Of a stretch of 64,000 bases of DNA, positions 19,474 to 26,867 are shown piece after piece. The translations under genes were made by a program, and so were the position numbers. Source of the DNA: Candidatus Sumerlaea chitinivorans. Its GTDB lineage: Bacteria; Sumerlaeota; Sumerlaeia; Sumerlaeales; Sumerlaeaceae. The notes below the pieces were generated by a model. The model was not told the DNA's origin, did not search any database, and saw only the letters and a program-made list of their open reading frames with translations. Location: NCBI GenBank assembly GCA_003290465.1, contig CP030759.1, positions 62,001-126,000 on the forward strand. The letters are read 5' to 3'. The first letter of the stretch is position 1. The number at the start of each line of letters is the position of its first letter.

Positions 19474-20604
19474 ATGAAACTCAAGGTCACGGGAATCGTG
19501 GCATTGGCCTTTGCGGCGGGTCTTGCTCAAGCGCAGACCATGGCAGAATTGGGTGCCGCAATGGCCGTGCAGGGTCAATTGGATGCATCGGCCGCGGGTG
19601 GTGGGCTGAATCCAACCACCTATATGGGTCGCGCCGAAGCCGCCGTTGCTGCGGCGAATGCACGACCAGAGCTCGCGATGACAGGGGTTCCGCCAAATCC
19701 GGCACAAGGGTTTGCGCCACCCGCTCCAGTCGGGCTGCCCGAAGGAGTTCCTCCCGACGCAGCTCTGGGAATGGGGCCTCAACCGGGGGCAGCCCCCGGA
19801 CAGTTGCCGGGTACGGCGCCGATCCCTGGTCTGTCGAGGCCAGTTGGGCCTCCCACGACAATCGGAGCGCCCGCTGCGCCGGGGGCGGCTGTGCCAACGC
19901 CCCAGCCTATGATCAAGGTGCTGGTGGGACGGCGCGTCTACTGCGCTGTCTGCGGAACGTTGCTCGACGACGCTTACTATATTGATGTGCTCGCGACCGA
20001 AAAGGATAAGTACCTTGACGACGGCATTCACGACAACGGTGTGGCAGGAGATGATATACGCGGCAACGTCGAAACGGTGAAGGATAGCTACATCGGACCA
20101 GAATGCGATACGTTGAAAAACCAGCTAATCGCTGCAATCCGCACTGCCGAGAATCTTTATCGCCCTCCAATGAGCGTGGTGCCGAATCCGGCCATCTCAC
20201 TTTGGGAGCCAAGTGAGGATCGTCGCAAACGTTTGGAAACCGAGGCGCAGCGAACCGCCGATGAAGCCAGCACGATGATGTTTTTTGGCTATCATGTGAT
20301 GGGGGTAAATCCCCGCACGTCGCCCCCTGAGTTGCCGAATATTCTCGAAAAGGCCAAGGAGCGCGACGACATCCTTCGCGATTGGAATAATCGCTTCCTC
20401 GCGAACTTCCGCAAGGACAAGGATGATCCAAAGAGCGACTATTACCAGCTCTATATTCCAGAGCCACCCGCTCCGCCGACTTACAGCTTCCCGCCCGGGT
20501 ATCGCGCGCCGCAGGTGCAAGGCACACCCGGAGCTGGTGGGCCCGCAACCCCCACGCCGAATATCTATAACGGCGACGCTGTGATCGGCGTCCCGGGTGT
20601 ATAA
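19474..20604 (+). CDS. Secreted Pro/Ala-rich protein with CxxC and Asp/Gly loop, unknown function
   Basis: I do not recognise a family. The start at ATG 19474 gives a signal peptide (MKLKVTGIVALAFAAGLAQA). Residues 40 to about 140 are Pro/Ala/Gly-rich and probably disordered. A compact region follows with VYCAVCGTLLDD, whose CxxC could bind metal or form a disulfide. Next is an acidic loop, DDGIHDNGVAGDDIRGN, like the Ca-binding D-x-G loops of surface proteins, and then a further Cys in PECDTLKNQL. The rest is charged and helical with another Pro-rich tail. It is the first gene of a plus-strand cluster with 20716, 21357, 24949 and 25069, and may be the envelope component of that unit. Confidence 0.7.
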   Translation: MKLKVTGIVALAFAAGLAQAQTMAELGAAMAVQGQLDASAAGGGLNPTTYMGRAEAAVAAANARPELAMTGVPPNPAQGFAPPAPVGLPEGVPPDAALGMGPQPGAAPGQLPGTAPIPGLSRPVGPPTTIGAPAAPGAAVPTPQPMIKVLVGRRVYCAVCGTLLDDAYYIDVLATEKDKYLDDGIHDNGVAGDDIRGNVETVKDSYIGPECDTLKNQLIAAIRTAENLYRPPMSVVPNPAISLWEPSEDRRKRLETEAQRTADEASTMMFFGYHVMGVNPRTSPPELPNILEKAKERDDILRDWNNRFLANFRKDKDDPKSDYYQLYIPEPPAPPTYSFPPGYRAPQVQGTPGAGGPATPTPNIYNGDAVIGVPGV

Positions 20605-20715
20605 GCGGGGAGCCCATAACTTCATGGTAGCCACACTGGCCGAGACAGCGATCTCTGGGGAGCCCGTGTTCCAACGAGATATGCGCTGAACGCAGTAGGA
20701 GATTGAAAGCTCGTT

Positions 20716-21288
20716 ATGCCAAAACAGGAGAAACCGAAACCACCTACGCCTGCTGAGCAATCCTTGAGCGATGCTCAGGCGTTGCTGCAGATTTGGTTGC
20801 GCATCAAGGTTTACTTCATGAAGGCCACCACGGAGGATCAGCTTTCCCCCGAAGACGAGAAAGCATTCTTGGATCTCAAGAGCGAGACTCAGCGGCTTCT
20901 CAGGTTGCTGAAAGCCAAGCTTATTCCCGGCTTGGAACTGGATGACGGAAAGGTACAGGCGCTGCTCAAGCAAAGTATTTCCATTCGACATTTGCGCGAG
21001 CTCCCTCGCATGGATCGCCAACTTCTAATTAATTCCTGGCATCAGGCGTTCATCCAGATTGCTGCCTTGGTGGGGGCACTCCAGTTTGTTGTGGAAGGGT
21101 ACCGCCCGCCGGTAGTCGCAAAGGCAGGCGCCGGCGCCAACATCGCAGATCTCAAGGGCGGTGCAAGCGGCTCCGGGGCAAAAAAGAAGCAAAAGAAGGA
21201 CATGGGCCAAGTCTTCAAGATCATTTTCATCGTGGGGCTTTTAGGTGCAGCGATATTCATTTTGGGAAAACGATTGCAGTGGTTCTAA
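20716..21288 (+). CDS. Helical protein with C-terminal membrane anchor, paralogue of the gene at 25069
   Basis: No known family recognised. The 190-residue product is mostly alpha-helical, with a flexible Lys/Gly linker near residues 135-161 and one C-terminal membrane helix (IIFIVGLLGAAIFILGK). This gives a tail-anchored layout with the bulk in the cytoplasm. Its core aligns with the product of 25069: LSPEDEKAFLDL against ISEQEEQQFFQI, then a DDGK/KDGK element, and ISIRHLRELP..LLINSWHQAFI against VSLQYIKSMS..LLIDWHTLFI. The invariant WH pair may mark an interaction surface. It lies 68 bases before the large repeat lipoprotein and is likely co-transcribed with it. Confidence 0.75.
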   Translation: MPKQEKPKPPTPAEQSLSDAQALLQIWLRIKVYFMKATTEDQLSPEDEKAFLDLKSETQRLLRLLKAKLIPGLELDDGKVQALLKQSISIRHLRELPRMDRQLLINSWHQAFIQIAALVGALQFVVEGYRPPVVAKAGAGANIADLKGGASGSGAKKKQKKDMGQVFKIIFIVGLLGAAIFILGKRLQWF

Positions 21289-21356
21289 ACTGTTTTGGGC
21301 TGGCGAACTCAACTTGACCTCGCCACTTTTGATGTGCTTGCTGAGGTGTGTAACGA

Positions 21357-24300
21357 ATGATGGGAAGGACGGATGACGTGGTGAACACGTTGGGAAACTG
21401 CGGACGAAAAATTGGGGTGTGGCTTGCAGTCAGCGCACTCATTCTCAGCCTCAGTGGCTGCGCTAAACAGCGGGCAGAACTCTCCATCAAGAAAGCAAAA
21501 GCCAATATTGAACAGGCTCGCGAATGGAAAGCCGACACCTTCGATGAGAGTAAGGGCGCGCTAAAAGCTGCCGAAGATGCGCTGAAAGCCGCTGAACAGA
21601 GCTTGGCGGGCGGACAGGCCTCTGCAGCGCTTGCAAGCGCTGGTGATGCGGTCAAGCAATCCAAGCAGGCCATCGACAGTGCGCGCACCCGCTATGCCGA
21701 TCGGATTCGCGAAGAGGCCCGAAAGGCGGTCCAAGTTGCCCGTATCAATGACGGCGACAAAGAGAACCCTGAGTTATTCAAGAAGGCCGAAGCAAGCCTC
21801 CAAGTTGCCGAGGAGAAGTACAACAAGCAAAAATATGAGGACTGCATCACGGCGTCCAAGCAAACCATTGACGCGGTAGATCAGTTGCTCGCTCACCTGA
21901 AAAACACCGCGGTCAATAAGCTTGATGAGCTTAAAGGCCTCGTGAAAGAGCTCGAAAAACAGGAGGCTGAAAAATACCAGCCGCAGGCCATCGTCAAAGC
22001 CAAAGAGAACGTCGAAAACATTGAGAAAAAGATCAACGTCGACCGCGATTATAAGCAGGCAATCATCCTCGCCGGTTCCGCGATCACTGCCGCACAAGAT
22101 GGAATCGTCGAGACAAAGAAGAGCAAAGCCAACCTTGAGATGCGCAATATCGAGTCCAAGATTGCGGAAGCTCGCGCCGACGAAGCCGCGATCTACACCC
22201 CCGATCGCCTTGCCGCTGCCGAGACTGCGTATCAGGAACTTATGGCAAACTATCTGAACAACCAGTTCGACACAGTGCTCAATCTCGTTCCCCAGCTAAA
22301 ACAGCAAGTGGAAGAACTGGTGACAGTCACCCGCATTGAAGCAACAAAGGACAAGATCGCAACCGTTGAGAAATCCATCAAGACGCTAAAAGATGAAGAC
22401 GTGCAGGTGCATTTGCCGGGCCGAGTCGAGGTGATGGAAAAACTCCTCGAGGAGGCTCGTTCGTATTTCAATAACAACGACTTCGACACCGCCAAAGAAA
22501 AGGCCAGCGAAGGTCTCATCGAGAATGACCGGATCATTGTGGCATTTGACAATCTAACGCAGAAGACGATCGAAGACGCAGAGTTTGCGGTCGGAACTGC
22601 TCGGCAAACTCTTGAGAAAGTGGAGAGCTTCTTTGTCACAAAGCCGCTTCCGAATGTAGCTGATCAGCGGATCGAAGTGCGCCGGCAGGCAGAAACAACG
22701 AACCTCAATGCGCAGCGAGATAGTGCAAACCGCTTGTTGCGTGACGCGAAAGAAGATCGTTCACGCCGCCAATTCAAGAACGCCATTGGTCGGGCGCGGC
22801 AAGCTCAACAGATCGCCGATGCCGTGACCAACCGGACGTTCCGTATTGTCGCCGAGCACGCGTTGCTGGCCATTCAAGATGAAGTGAGCGAGCTTGAGCG
22901 ACAAGGTGCCCGCCAATATGCTTCGCGGCCCCTCTCGCAAGTTCAGGCGTTGGTTGAGGAAACCCAGCGGTTACTCAACGAAGATAAGAACCGTCAGGCG
23001 GCGGAGGTCACCGCGAAAGCGCGAGCCTACGTCGAGAGCGTGAAACAACTGTTGGCACAACGTGCGATCGAGGAAAAGAAGCGAACTGAGGAGCTGTTGC
23101 GTCGAATTGAAGGTACGGCGCCGGCCCCCGGCATTATCACCGTTAAGCATGAGTCGCCCGGTGGCGGATCTGGCAACAACAAGGAAGCAATGGCGGAAAT
23201 GGCCGCGGATGAGCTTCATCCCACGCCACTCGTCGTGGCGCAGGCACCCGCTGGTGCTGCCATCGGTACTCGACCCGAGCCCGTAGCAAGTGATGCGGGG
23301 CGAAACGTTGAACCAGCCACGGGGAGCGGTCCTTTTGAGGTGGGGACACCTGCTGCCTCCCAAGTAGGAGGGGACAGCCCCGACGCCCTCAGCAGCGAGA
23401 ATTCCGCTGAGGCAATTCGCCAACGCGTCGAAAGCATGTTGGCAGATGAGCAACGGCTTTTCGACATCCGCAAGTACCAGCCTAATGCCATTCGCCAAGC
23501 CCGCGAGAAACTCCAAGAGTCAGCGAACGCACTCGTGGCGCAAGAATATCTGAAGGCGCTCCAAGCGGCCGAAGAAGCTCAACGGATTCTCCTCAAGGCG
23601 GAGCAAAATGCGGCTCGGGCTGCGACGAAGGAAAATCTGGATGCAGCTGCCGACAAAATCAATCTCGCGGAAGCCGCTGGTGCGATTATGTTTGCTCCTG
23701 CCCAGCTCACGGAAGCGATTCGCCTGTATCACCAAGCCGAAAAACTCCTGGCTCGGGGCGAATATCTTAAGGCTCGTGACGTAAGCGCCCAAGCGCTAAC
23801 GGCTGCAGAAGACGCGCGCCTGTACAACGTCAATAAGGCACGCGATCTTGCCAGCTTATCCACCCGCTATGGAGGTTGGAAGGCGTCCCATCCTTACCTC
23901 GTCGAGGCAGAACAAAAAGCGGCGGTAGCAGAGGAGTTGCTGGATAACCCTCAGACGGCAGCCGAGGGGCAAGAGCTTGCCAAAGAAGCCGTTAAGATGG
24001 CCCAAATGGCCCTCGACCATGCGCGTGACTATACTTTCCAAGAGCGCCTCGACAATATCTACCGGGCACTCAATCAGGCGCTCCGGGCTGGCGCAAACTA
24101 CTTCAACGTGGAAGAGGTGAAGCGCCTGATTGCCGAGATCAACGCCGCCCGCTCTGAATATTGCACGCGAAACTTTGACGCCGTCGAGATGCGCTTGAAA
24201 GACATCGAAGCGGGCTTAGCGCGAGTGATCGAGACAACGCCGCTTGTCCTTGAGCAGAACCTAAAGGACAACACGGCGAGACTTAATGCTTTGATCGAGG

Positions 24301-24929
24301 CGGGCGCCGAAGACTACATGGCCCAAGAGGTCGACGACGTAAAGACGCTCATGAATCGGTCTGTCGTCGATTTCCGTAAGCGCGACTATGCCTCCTCTTA
24401 TACGAATCTAAAAGAGGCAATTGCGCTAACGAACCGCATCGAGGAACGGCTACAAGAACAGGTCTATTTCGACTCGGTGACGGAGTTGTTTGCTCAGTTG
24501 GACAAGGCCTTCCATGATTTCGAAGGCGTCATCTCGTACAATCCGACATTCCTCAAAAAGCTTGTCACAACGCCCCATGGCAGACCGGCAGCGATCAATC
24601 TGACCGCAGGCCGCGCAACACCCAATGATTTCAAGGATACCGTGAAAGATATCTATCTGCGGGCAATTCATCTCAAGCCCCCAAAGACGCAGCAAGCGAC
24701 GCACGAGCAGATCGTGCTTGCTATTAAGTACGCTTACACAGCTGCTGAGAATTTCCAAAAGCTCTACCTGCTCGACCAAGTGTCGAACCAAGATGCCTAC
24801 GAGATCATTGACACTGCGTACGAGCAGATTCGCAAAGCTCGTGAATTGCGTGCCGAAGTTCAGCTGAAGTTAATTGATCCCCAAGCGCGGACGAAGGTCG
24901 TGCGCGCCGAAAAAATCGTGAATTTCTAA
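21357..24929 (+). CDS. Very large lipoprotein with about 12 tandem DUF4398-like helical repeats
   Basis: A 1190-residue envelope lipoprotein. The lipobox LSGC places the acylated Cys at residue 35 and the ATG at 21357 has GAGGTG 8 bases upstream. From residue 40 onward the protein is a series of about 65-70-residue helical units. Each carries an aromatic-Pro-like turn and an acidic dyad, for example KYQPQAIVKAKENV, IYTPDRLAAAETAY and KYQPNAIRQAREKL, then a dyxxA segment such as DYKQAIILAGSAI. Seven units precede a Gly/Pro-rich linker (about 570-683) and five follow. A unique helical C-terminus spans 1034-1190. The unit resembles DUF4398 repeats of outer-membrane proteins (inference). It should form a long rod or superhelix from the membrane. 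Confidence 0.85.
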   Translation: MMGRTDDVVNTLGNCGRKIGVWLAVSALILSLSGCAKQRAELSIKKAKANIEQAREWKADTFDESKGALKAAEDALKAAEQSLAGGQASAALASAGDAVKQSKQAIDSARTRYADRIREEARKAVQVARINDGDKENPELFKKAEASLQVAEEKYNKQKYEDCITASKQTIDAVDQLLAHLKNTAVNKLDELKGLVKELEKQEAEKYQPQAIVKAKENVENIEKKINVDRDYKQAIILAGSAITAAQDGIVETKKSKANLEMRNIESKIAEARADEAAIYTPDRLAAAETAYQELMANYLNNQFDTVLNLVPQLKQQVEELVTVTRIEATKDKIATVEKSIKTLKDEDVQVHLPGRVEVMEKLLEEARSYFNNNDFDTAKEKASEGLIENDRIIVAFDNLTQKTIEDAEFAVGTARQTLEKVESFFVTKPLPNVADQRIEVRRQAETTNLNAQRDSANRLLRDAKEDRSRRQFKNAIGRARQAQQIADAVTNRTFRIVAEHALLAIQDEVSELERQGARQYASRPLSQVQALVEETQRLLNEDKNRQAAEVTAKARAYVESVKQLLAQRAIEEKKRTEELLRRIEGTAPAPGIITVKHESPGGGSGNNKEAMAEMAADELHPTPLVVAQAPAGAAIGTRPEPVASDAGRNVEPATGSGPFEVGTPAASQVGGDSPDALSSENSAEAIRQRVESMLADEQRLFDIRKYQPNAIRQAREKLQESANALVAQEYLKALQAAEEAQRILLKAEQNAARAATKENLDAAADKINLAEAAGAIMFAPAQLTEAIRLYHQAEKLLARGEYLKARDVSAQALTAAEDARLYNVNKARDLASLSTRYGGWKASHPYLVEAEQKAAVAEELLDNPQTAAEGQELAKEAVKMAQMALDHARDYTFQERLDNIYRALNQALRAGANYFNVEEVKRLIAEINAARSEYCTRNFDAVEMRLKDIEAGLARVIETTPLVLEQNLKDNTARLNALIEAGAEDYMAQEVDDVKTLMNRSVVDFRKRDYASSYTNLKEAIALTNRIEERLQEQVYFDSVTELFAQLDKAFHDFEGVISYNPTFLKKLVTTPHGRPAAINLTAGRATPNDFKDTVKDIYLRAIHLKPPKTQQATHEQIVLAIKYAYTAAENFQKLYLLDQVSNQDAYEIIDTAYEQIRKARELRAEVQLKLIDPQARTKVVRAEKIVNF

Positions 24930-24948
24930 GTCAGAGGACGAACAGACC

Positions 24949-25059
24949 GTGCTGGGAACGCTGAACTACATTACGAAAATTGAGATTATCGTCATTGTCG
25001 GTATTCTGATTTTTGCTGTCTACGTGGCCTACTCGCTTGACCTGTTCAAGAAAGGGTAA
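24949..25059 (+). CDS. 36-residue single-pass membrane peptide
   Basis: A short reading frame starting at GTG with AGAGGA about 10 bases upstream. It encodes MLGTLNYITKIEIIVIVGIL and then IFAVYVAYSLDLFKKG. The middle is an uninterrupted hydrophobic helix and the C-terminus is basic. It lies 19 bases after the lipoprotein stop and 9 bases before the next gene, filling the intergenic space exactly as a real operon member would. It is unrecognised; it may anchor or regulate the neighbouring cytoplasmic protein at 25069, which lacks the membrane helix its paralogue has. Confidence 0.65.
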   Translation: MLGTLNYITKIEIIVIVGILIFAVYVAYSLDLFKKG

Positions 25060-25068
25060 TCTGCAACC

Positions 25069-25521
25069 GTGGCTCTGTTGAAACACAAGAAAGACGATCC
25101 ACATTCGAAACTCACTGCGCTTGAGAACCGTATTGCCGTGTGTACCCAGTACGCAAAGCTGTGGCATGATTATGGGCGGTTTTTCTCAGAGGGTCTGCAG
25201 GATCGCCGTATCAGCGAACAGGAAGAACAGCAGTTTTTTCAAATCATCTACTTGTTGGCCTCGAATCACTACCGATTTACCCAGCTTGCAGGCGAGTTTT
25301 TCAAAGACGGGAAAGCAGTTCTCAAAGTTCTGAGTGACACCGTCAGTTTGCAGTACATAAAATCGATGAGTGATGCGCAATTCGGCCAACTCTTGATCGA
25401 TTGGCACACGCTTTTTATAATGATGAACAAGGCACTCGGGAAGTTGAAGGCTCTTCAGCCTCCTCCCGAGGAGCAAACATCCAAAAAGGGTAAATCGCGT
25501 GCTGCAAAGGCTGCAGCGTAA
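25069..25521 (+). CDS. Small helical cytoplasmic protein, paralogue of the gene at 20716
   Basis: A 150-residue protein with no recognised family, starting at GTG 25069. It shares its helical core with the product of 20716 (see the WH element LLIDWHTLFI and the ISEQEEQQFF element), but lacks the C-terminal membrane helix. It ends instead in a Pro/Glu turn and a Lys/Ala-rich tail. The two paralogues bracket the repeat lipoprotein and the membrane peptide. This suggests that one is tail-anchored while the other is soluble, perhaps recruited by the 36-residue peptide. hflX starts only 5 bases after its stop, so it may be co-transcribed with a conserved gene. Confidence 0.75.
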   Translation: MALLKHKKDDPHSKLTALENRIAVCTQYAKLWHDYGRFFSEGLQDRRISEQEEQQFFQIIYLLASNHYRFTQLAGEFFKDGKAVLKVLSDTVSLQYIKSMSDAQFGQLLIDWHTLFIMMNKALGKLKALQPPPEEQTSKKGKSRAAKAAA

Positions 25522-25526
25522 GTGGT

Positions 25527-26867
25527 GTGAGGCGGAGATCCACATCGCCATCCCCTGAGCAGAATGTTCGAGCAGAGCTACCCGAACCTGAGCGGGAAGT
25601 TTATCTTGTCTGCGCTTTGCAAACCCCACAGGTCAGTGCCGAGGAGGCTCAACTCTCGCTCGAGGAGCTTCAGCGATTGGTCCAATCCGCCTCGGGCGAA
25701 ATTGCGGACGCACTCATCGTTCGATTGAGGGAAATTACGGCTGGCACGTTTCTTACCCGCGGGCGTGTGCAGCAGCTTAAAGCCTGTGCGGAGGCGTTCG
25801 AACTTACAGGCATTGTCTTCGATCAGGACTTCTCCCCCGTTCAAGTTCGCAACCTGACTGATGAGATCGGGGTCAGGATCATCGGGCGATCCGAACTCAT
25901 TCTCGATATCTTTGCTCGACGCGCCAGAACCCACGAAGGGAAGCTTCAAGTCGAACTGGCCCAACTCCAGTACCTGCTACCGCGCCTCATCGGAAAAGGA
26001 TTTGTCTTGTCGCGCCTCGGAGGTGGGATCGGGACTCGAGGCCCGGGCGAAACGAAACTCGAAATGGACCGCCGACGCATTGCTGCACGCATTGCGCATC
26101 TCCGCCATGAGCTGAACGCCCTCCGTCGCCACCGGGATACCCAGCGCAAGCGTCGTGTGCGCAGTCAGGTGCTCACGATCGCTCTCATTGGCTACACCAA
26201 CGCCGGCAAATCGACGCTTCTGCGAACATTGACGCAAGCCGAGGTGCACGTTGCCGATCAGTTGTTTGCCACACTGGACCCCACGGCGCGAAAGACGATT
26301 TTGCCCGACGGTAGACTTGCGGTGTTTACCGATACCGTCGGCTTTATCCACCGCTTGCCTCCGGCTCTATTGGATGCCTTCAAAGCCACGCTCGAAGAAA
26401 TCTGCTATGCGGATTTGCTCCTCCATGTGGTGGATGCATCCTCGCCTCTCTTTGAGCGAGAAGTGGCGACTACCGAGCAGATTCTCGCGGACTTGGGGGC
26501 TGGGCAAAAACCTATCCTTCGGGTTTACAACAAAATTGACCAAGGCCTGAGTGAAGCCGCTGCCGAGCGACTGCGTTCCTCCGAGGAGGAAGCGGTTGCT
26601 ATCTCGGCACTGTATAAAGTTGGCATTCTCGATCTACTCAATGCAATCACGCGGATCACCTCACCAAATCGTCAGCGGATTCGTCTTTCCATTCCTTACG
26701 AGAGATGTGATTTGCTCGGGCAACTTTATGCAAAAGCGACAGTGGAGAAGATCGCATACGAGAATGCGGCGATTGAGGTTGAAGCGATTGCCGATCTTCA
26801 AGGCCTGGGAAGTGCGTTCTCGCCCTATGTGGTCCGCGAGCAAAGCAAACCCACCTCAAGCGAATAG
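25527..26867 (+). CDS. hflX: GTPase HflX
   Basis: Ribosome-associated GTPase that splits or rescues stalled 70S ribosomes in many bacteria. The N-terminal HflX domain includes GTFLTRGRVQQL and FDQDFSPVQVRNL. A helical middle carries GIGTRGPGETKLEMDRRRI. The G domain has G1 GYTNAGKST, G2 FATLDPTAR, G3 DTVGFI and G4 NKID. At 446 residues it is normal size. It starts at GTG 25527 just after the small protein at 25069. No hfq is nearby. Confidence 0.96.
   Translation: MRRRSTSPSPEQNVRAELPEPEREVYLVCALQTPQVSAEEAQLSLEELQRLVQSASGEIADALIVRLREITAGTFLTRGRVQQLKACAEAFELTGIVFDQDFSPVQVRNLTDEIGVRIIGRSELILDIFARRARTHEGKLQVELAQLQYLLPRLIGKGFVLSRLGGGIGTRGPGETKLEMDRRRIAARIAHLRHELNALRRHRDTQRKRRVRSQVLTIALIGYTNAGKSTLLRTLTQAEVHVADQLFATLDPTARKTILPDGRLAVFTDTVGFIHRLPPALLDAFKATLEEICYADLLLHVVDASSPLFEREVATTEQILADLGAGQKPILRVYNKIDQGLSEAAAERLRSSEEEAVAISALYKVGILDLLNAITRITSPNRQRIRLSIPYERCDLLGQLYAKATVEKIAYENAAIEVEAIADLQGLGSAFSPYVVREQSKPTSSE

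Follow-up and report, generated by a model that had tools for sequence, protein, structure and literature searches.

Five consecutive genes, here called A to E, have kept their order over three phyla and must therefore matter to the organisms that own them. We tentatively propose, from sequence comparisons, that their products could form one envelope-spanning structural complex, whose cytoplasmic part would most likely be tied to a type IV pilus-type machine. In its most explicit form this proposal, which we put forward with caution, is of an undescribed trans-envelope machine that three phyla keep as a unit. Its obligatory membrane peptide of 30-45 residues might couple a pair of cytoplasmic bundles, from a new and pilus-derived family, to a helical array that has a fixed length and is tethered to the outer membrane. 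The A-E system fits none of the families tested, and its mechanism is what we infer from the evidence below.

A five-gene unit kept in three phyla

The window, that is the whole 64,000-nucleotide stretch analysed, covers positions 62001-126000 of a single-contig genome of 3.29 Mb, in which the cluster lies at 0.08 Mb. All the closest named relatives of this genome are Candidatus Sumerlaeota (candidate division BRC1), the phylum in which it is placed. A sequence-only reading of the window had claimed five consecutive plus-strand genes, and all five open reading frames were found within 19474-25521:

19474..20604, + strand: gene A, secreted Pro/Gly-rich protein (open reading frame with a Sec-type signal peptide and a conserved core)
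20716..21288, + strand: gene B, cytoplasmic W...E..F...WH helical-bundle domain with a C-terminal membrane anchor
21357..24929, + strand: gene C, 1190-residue repeat lipoprotein (Cys35) with DUF4398-like helical repeats of ~72 residues
24949..25059, + strand: gene D, 36-residue single-span membrane peptide, kept at every locus examined
25069..25521, + strand: gene E, soluble paralogue of B consisting of the domain alone, predicted helical bundle

A search with B revealed relatives in 38 of 41 genomes, mostly as two copies separated by about 4.4 kb. The order A-B-C-D-E on one strand was seen in the 14 Sumerlaeota loci or genomes read first, and A, B, C and E are complete in 16 of the 18 named Sumerlaeota contigs, the other two being truncated by contig ends. 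With a B/E profile, the family was detected in 39 of 40 Sumerlaeota genomes and in 9 of about 250 genomes outside the phylum. Genome G182 is one of the carriers outside Sumerlaeota; of the 13 other genomes of its phylum, 12 also have the family, most carriers in that phylum showing a B-E spacing of about 4 kb and a separate third family member, F, described below. The family is likewise present in two genomes of a third phylum. Every sampled cluster-bearing genome outside Sumerlaeota also has F, and several have F alone. Gene A is clear at most loci of the two other phyla and weak at two; it was not found in L120, L113 (locus truncated by contig end) or L121 (broken locus). A further sample of 385 genomes contained the family in 18, but added no phylum in which B and E lie about 4 kb from each other.

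The A-B-C-D-E order thus holds across Sumerlaeota, in two classes, and in two further phyla. Gene order in relatives had been named as a check on the sequence-only reading, and the homologues are syntenic; a scatter of homologues without synteny is ruled out by the order shared in three phyla. In the window, the cluster is flanked 5' by a phosphoglucomutase-like gene and a GloB-like hydrolase gene, and 3' by hflX. These flanking genes differ between lineages, which indicates that the unit, and not the region, is what has been conserved.

Comparison with known families and systems

The five products had been assigned to no described pathway, and comparisons with Pfam, NCBIfam, PADLOC, the PDB and Foldseek agree: A, B, D and E have no match there that would name them, and C resembles DUF4398. 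Searching the PDB with profiles of A, B/E and C brought up nothing convincing. A known anti-phage defence system is ruled out as far as PADLOC models go, none of which matches. Tol-Pal and TonB-ExbBD also link the inner and outer membranes, and none of their Pfam domains occurs in A-E. The cluster is not described in two articles on Sumerlaeota (PMC8092238 and PMC10866078), and no title among the papers mentioning DUF4398 points to such a cluster. The unit would add a trans-envelope system to those described; four of its five products are without a match in Pfam, NCBIfam or the PDB.

Lipoprotein C, a repeat array of constant length

The lipobox LSGC, with its cysteine at position 35, bears out the earlier description of C as a lipoprotein. 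Cys35 is invariant in 14 aligned orthologs, and a strict pattern finds the lipobox in 31 of 33. Asp at position +2 is absent in all 31 of these, as would be expected of an outer-membrane lipoprotein, the +2 sorting rule being a proteobacterial one that may not hold in Sumerlaeota. Profile self-comparison of C revealed internal repeats, with a score of 47, where none of 60 block shuffles exceeded 18, and the repeat offsets, near 72, 144 and 216, define a helical unit of about 72 residues. The protein consists of about 14 such units in tandem.

Once the insert specific to its family is removed, 13 members of the window's class have a mature C of 1035-1050 residues, with a mean of 1041.6 and an sd of 4.5, at an identity of only about 25%. 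In the two other phyla the lengths are 1120-1137 and 1067-1068 residues, respectively. This constancy fits a scaffolding or spacing role, and it raises the old question of how the distance from membrane to membrane is set, in a new setting where it can be tested. The insert itself is Pro/Gly-rich, counts 115 residues in the window (23100-23460) and 115-188 in the family of the window's genome, and is found nowhere else.

Lipoproteins with DUF4398 (PF14346), such as Leptospira LipL71, share the lipid anchor with C and resemble it in their helical repeats, whereas C is distinguished by its ~14-unit tandem array of fixed total length. The PF14346 profile matches 8 of 14 C orthologs (best 4.2e-10), with the C of the window missing the E 0.01 threshold, and the match of one ortholog to LipL71 is weak (3.5e-05) and far below the cut-off.

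Microprotein D

A single-span peptide of about 30-45 residues was present in 32 of the 32 C-E gaps examined. Its span starts with Glu in 30 of 32 cases and with Gln in the others, contains Tyr or Phe in the second half in all 32 and has Leu near its end in 30, and the C-terminal end carries a conserved F-K/R-K pattern (LFKK). Substitutions give pS values of 0.58-0.94 against pN values of 0.09-0.22; at the sequence level, D evolves under strong purifying selection. The peptide had been called a gene from its 36 residues in the window; its recurrence in every gap, with pN far below pS, establishes it as a genuine one, and rules out a chance open reading frame. Since B is soluble outside the class of the window's genome, D is the sole inner-membrane part common to all lineages. 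It is thus a universally kept microprotein of a size that gene callers easily overlook.

B and E share a domain with a pilus-locus protein

B and E belong to one sequence family, as expected from the earlier claim that E is a soluble paralogue of B. Both carry the family signature (W, E, F, WH, G) and match the profile. What they have in common with F is a domain spanning about 110 residues, in which W32, E53, F56, W112, H113 and G124 (E numbering) are near-invariant and which defines a new family. The predicted structure of E is a helical bundle with pLDDT above 93 over residues 21-130; its best matches in fold searches, at E 0.15 in the PDB and E 0.10 among viral structures, are insignificant and correspond to generic helical bundles. 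In the window, the C-terminal hydrophobic span of B is preceded by a KKKQKK stretch. The description of B as tail-anchored holds within the class of the window's genome and fails elsewhere, B being soluble in the other class, represented by a single member, as well as in the two other phyla.

F is encoded away from the cluster and always has a membrane span, which follows the domain in 22 of 22 proteins examined and resembles that of B, whereas E has no span at all. Most F proteins of the window's class have an extra C-terminal domain. In the window's genome, F (L021:5764-6771, + strand, at about 1.82 Mb) lies directly behind pilC, with pilT divergent, and about 1.7 Mb away from the cluster; B and E, unlike F, are not beside pilus genes. 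In 16 genomes, which belong to two phyla, F directly follows pilC (T2SSF domain), and pilB-pilC-F-dprA is a frequent arrangement there; F adjoins pilT in two other lineages and follows a secretin gene in one. It also occurs in several phyla that have no A-E cluster. The family would put a label on a component of type IV pilus loci that has gone unstudied, in about 10 further lineages. One study reports twitching by type IV pili for all the Sumerlaeota MAGs that it covered (PMC8092238).

In a tree of B, E and F the three types cluster across phyla, with 3 label changes where the minimum is 2 and the shuffled mean 27.5; the deepest forks have low support. Grouping by type and not by phylum implies either that the three forms are older than these phyla or that the whole unit has moved between them.

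Gene A

The Sec-type signal peptide and Pro-rich sequence of A confirm what had been read from the window, a secreted Pro-rich protein. Its core follows the motif VxxGxRVxCAVxGxLLxDA...YxDDGxHxDxxAGDxIYTN, continues into helices and ends in a PPxxPxxPxPxGF tail, the Pro pattern being invariant among orthologs. The DDGxHxDxxAGD loop is presumably of the kind found in secreted beta-sandwich proteins. An AlphaFold model of A (mean pLDDT 58.5) places the core, about residues 146-227 and 290-340, at moderate confidence and leaves the remainder disordered; a structure search with this low-confidence model returned no informative match. Two orthologs, one in another class (L036:5726-6613) and one in another phylum (L075:7042-8046), have a zinc-ribbon-like pair of CxxC motifs N-terminal of the core.

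A comEA-type gene (HHH_3) adjoins A on its 5' side in three lineages (L027:11143-11907, L052:4067-4771 and L036:6650-7087), among which is the sole genome of the other class of Sumerlaeota. In L027 and L036 comEA in turn lies behind leuS. Loci with comEA beside A are a minority, and the window is not one of them.

A proposed complex and its alternatives

The mix of cytoplasmic, membrane and exported products, from which a trans-envelope assembly had been deduced, holds, with the reservation that the membrane anchor of B is not general. In the complex that we propose, a lipid would tether C to the outer membrane, and its array of about 14 helical hairpins, constant in length, would project into the periplasm. 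D would serve as a small subunit in the inner membrane; from the charge of its conserved LFKK end, the positive-inside rule predicts this end to be cytoplasmic. The related helical bundles B and E would lie on the cytoplasmic side, B being held by its own tail in Sumerlaeia, and A would be exported to the periplasm or the surface. The cytoplasmic part may dock on an inner-membrane machine of the type IV pilus kind that serves twitching or DNA uptake, or may be modelled on such docking. We infer the contacts among the parts, their topology and the pilus or DNA-uptake role, the latter through guilt by association: a pilus-type machine is the most likely partner given the ancient paralogy of B and E with the membrane protein F, which is encoded with pilB-pilC, and the kinship with F together with comEA beside A makes a pilus or DNA-uptake tie the most likely direction. 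Against such a complex, the variable, flexible insert of 115-188 residues that C carries in one family is ill-suited to a rigid ruler. The roughly 1.7 Mb between the cluster and F with pilC in the window's genome also speaks against this reading, as does the small share of loci with comEA beside A. Moreover, pilB-pilC-F is often followed by dprA-topA; as this is a common housekeeping neighbourhood, the adjacency of F to pilus genes may in part be inherited gene order.

A trans-envelope tether or spacer free of any pilus tie, with B and E recruited long ago from a pilus-linked family and now serving envelope architecture or outer-membrane stability, would account for the constant length of C and for the distance between cluster and pilus genes in the window's genome. 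Directly behind E, L113, L117, L118 and L121, all of another phylum, have lptE, three of them also holA, which is an outer-membrane-assembly neighbourhood and a housekeeping one as well. We consider this reading somewhat less likely than the pilus-linked one, as outside Sumerlaeota the cluster was never seen without F, and as comEA adjoins A in three lineages. The PilMNOP and GspLMC systems are, like A-E, trans-envelope sets of cytoplasmic, inner-membrane and lipoprotein parts, and the presence of one cytoplasmic protein, small bitopic inner-membrane proteins and one lipoprotein could suggest a substitute for the PilMNOP alignment complex, which joins the secretin to the inner-membrane motor. 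That the five proteins play this part is very improbable: they match none of these families in sequence and lack the actin-like PilM and PilN domains of Pfam, whereas canonical PilM, PilN and secretins are encoded separately in the same genomes, in 15 of 15 tested. The window's genome has the PilM and PilN families and three secretins, located at 1.29, 1.88 and 1.97 Mb as against 0.08 Mb for the cluster, which is not encoded with pilQ. Replacement of a missing PilMNOP is ruled out by these separate genes, and A-E is therefore not a stand-in for the known alignment complex.

One soluble cytoplasmic protein, several exported ones and a domain common to E and B could also make up a device for signalling or for sensing stress, in keeping with the cytoplasmic readout suggested by the sequence-only reading: A or C would sense the envelope and E would report to the cytoplasm. 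We regard this as improbable, since kinase, receiver, sigma, anti-sigma, protease and DNA-binding domains are absent from all five proteins. It is equally doubtful that A-E build or anchor a surface structure such as a holdfast, a sheath or an S-layer anchor. Here A, exported, Pro-rich and with a loop presumably like those of secreted beta-sandwich proteins, would be the surface part, but neither an anchor nor an adhesin domain was found, and the model of A is too uncertain for judgement.

Other genes around the cluster

Directly 5' of A, five related Sumerlaeota have an unannotated gene whose product is membrane-anchored and about 400 residues long; two of these products were compared with Pfam and gave no match:

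L028:12292-13611, ~400-residue membrane-anchored protein
L030:11884-13116, the same
L033:10753-11949, the same
L045:1191-2420, the same
L048:3536-4720, the same

Scans of the cluster for promoters and terminators gave no convincing excess over shuffled sequences. At its 3' end, hflX (window 25527-26867) begins 6 bases beyond E and may be co-transcribed with it in the window's genome; this adjacency is retained only in the closest relative.
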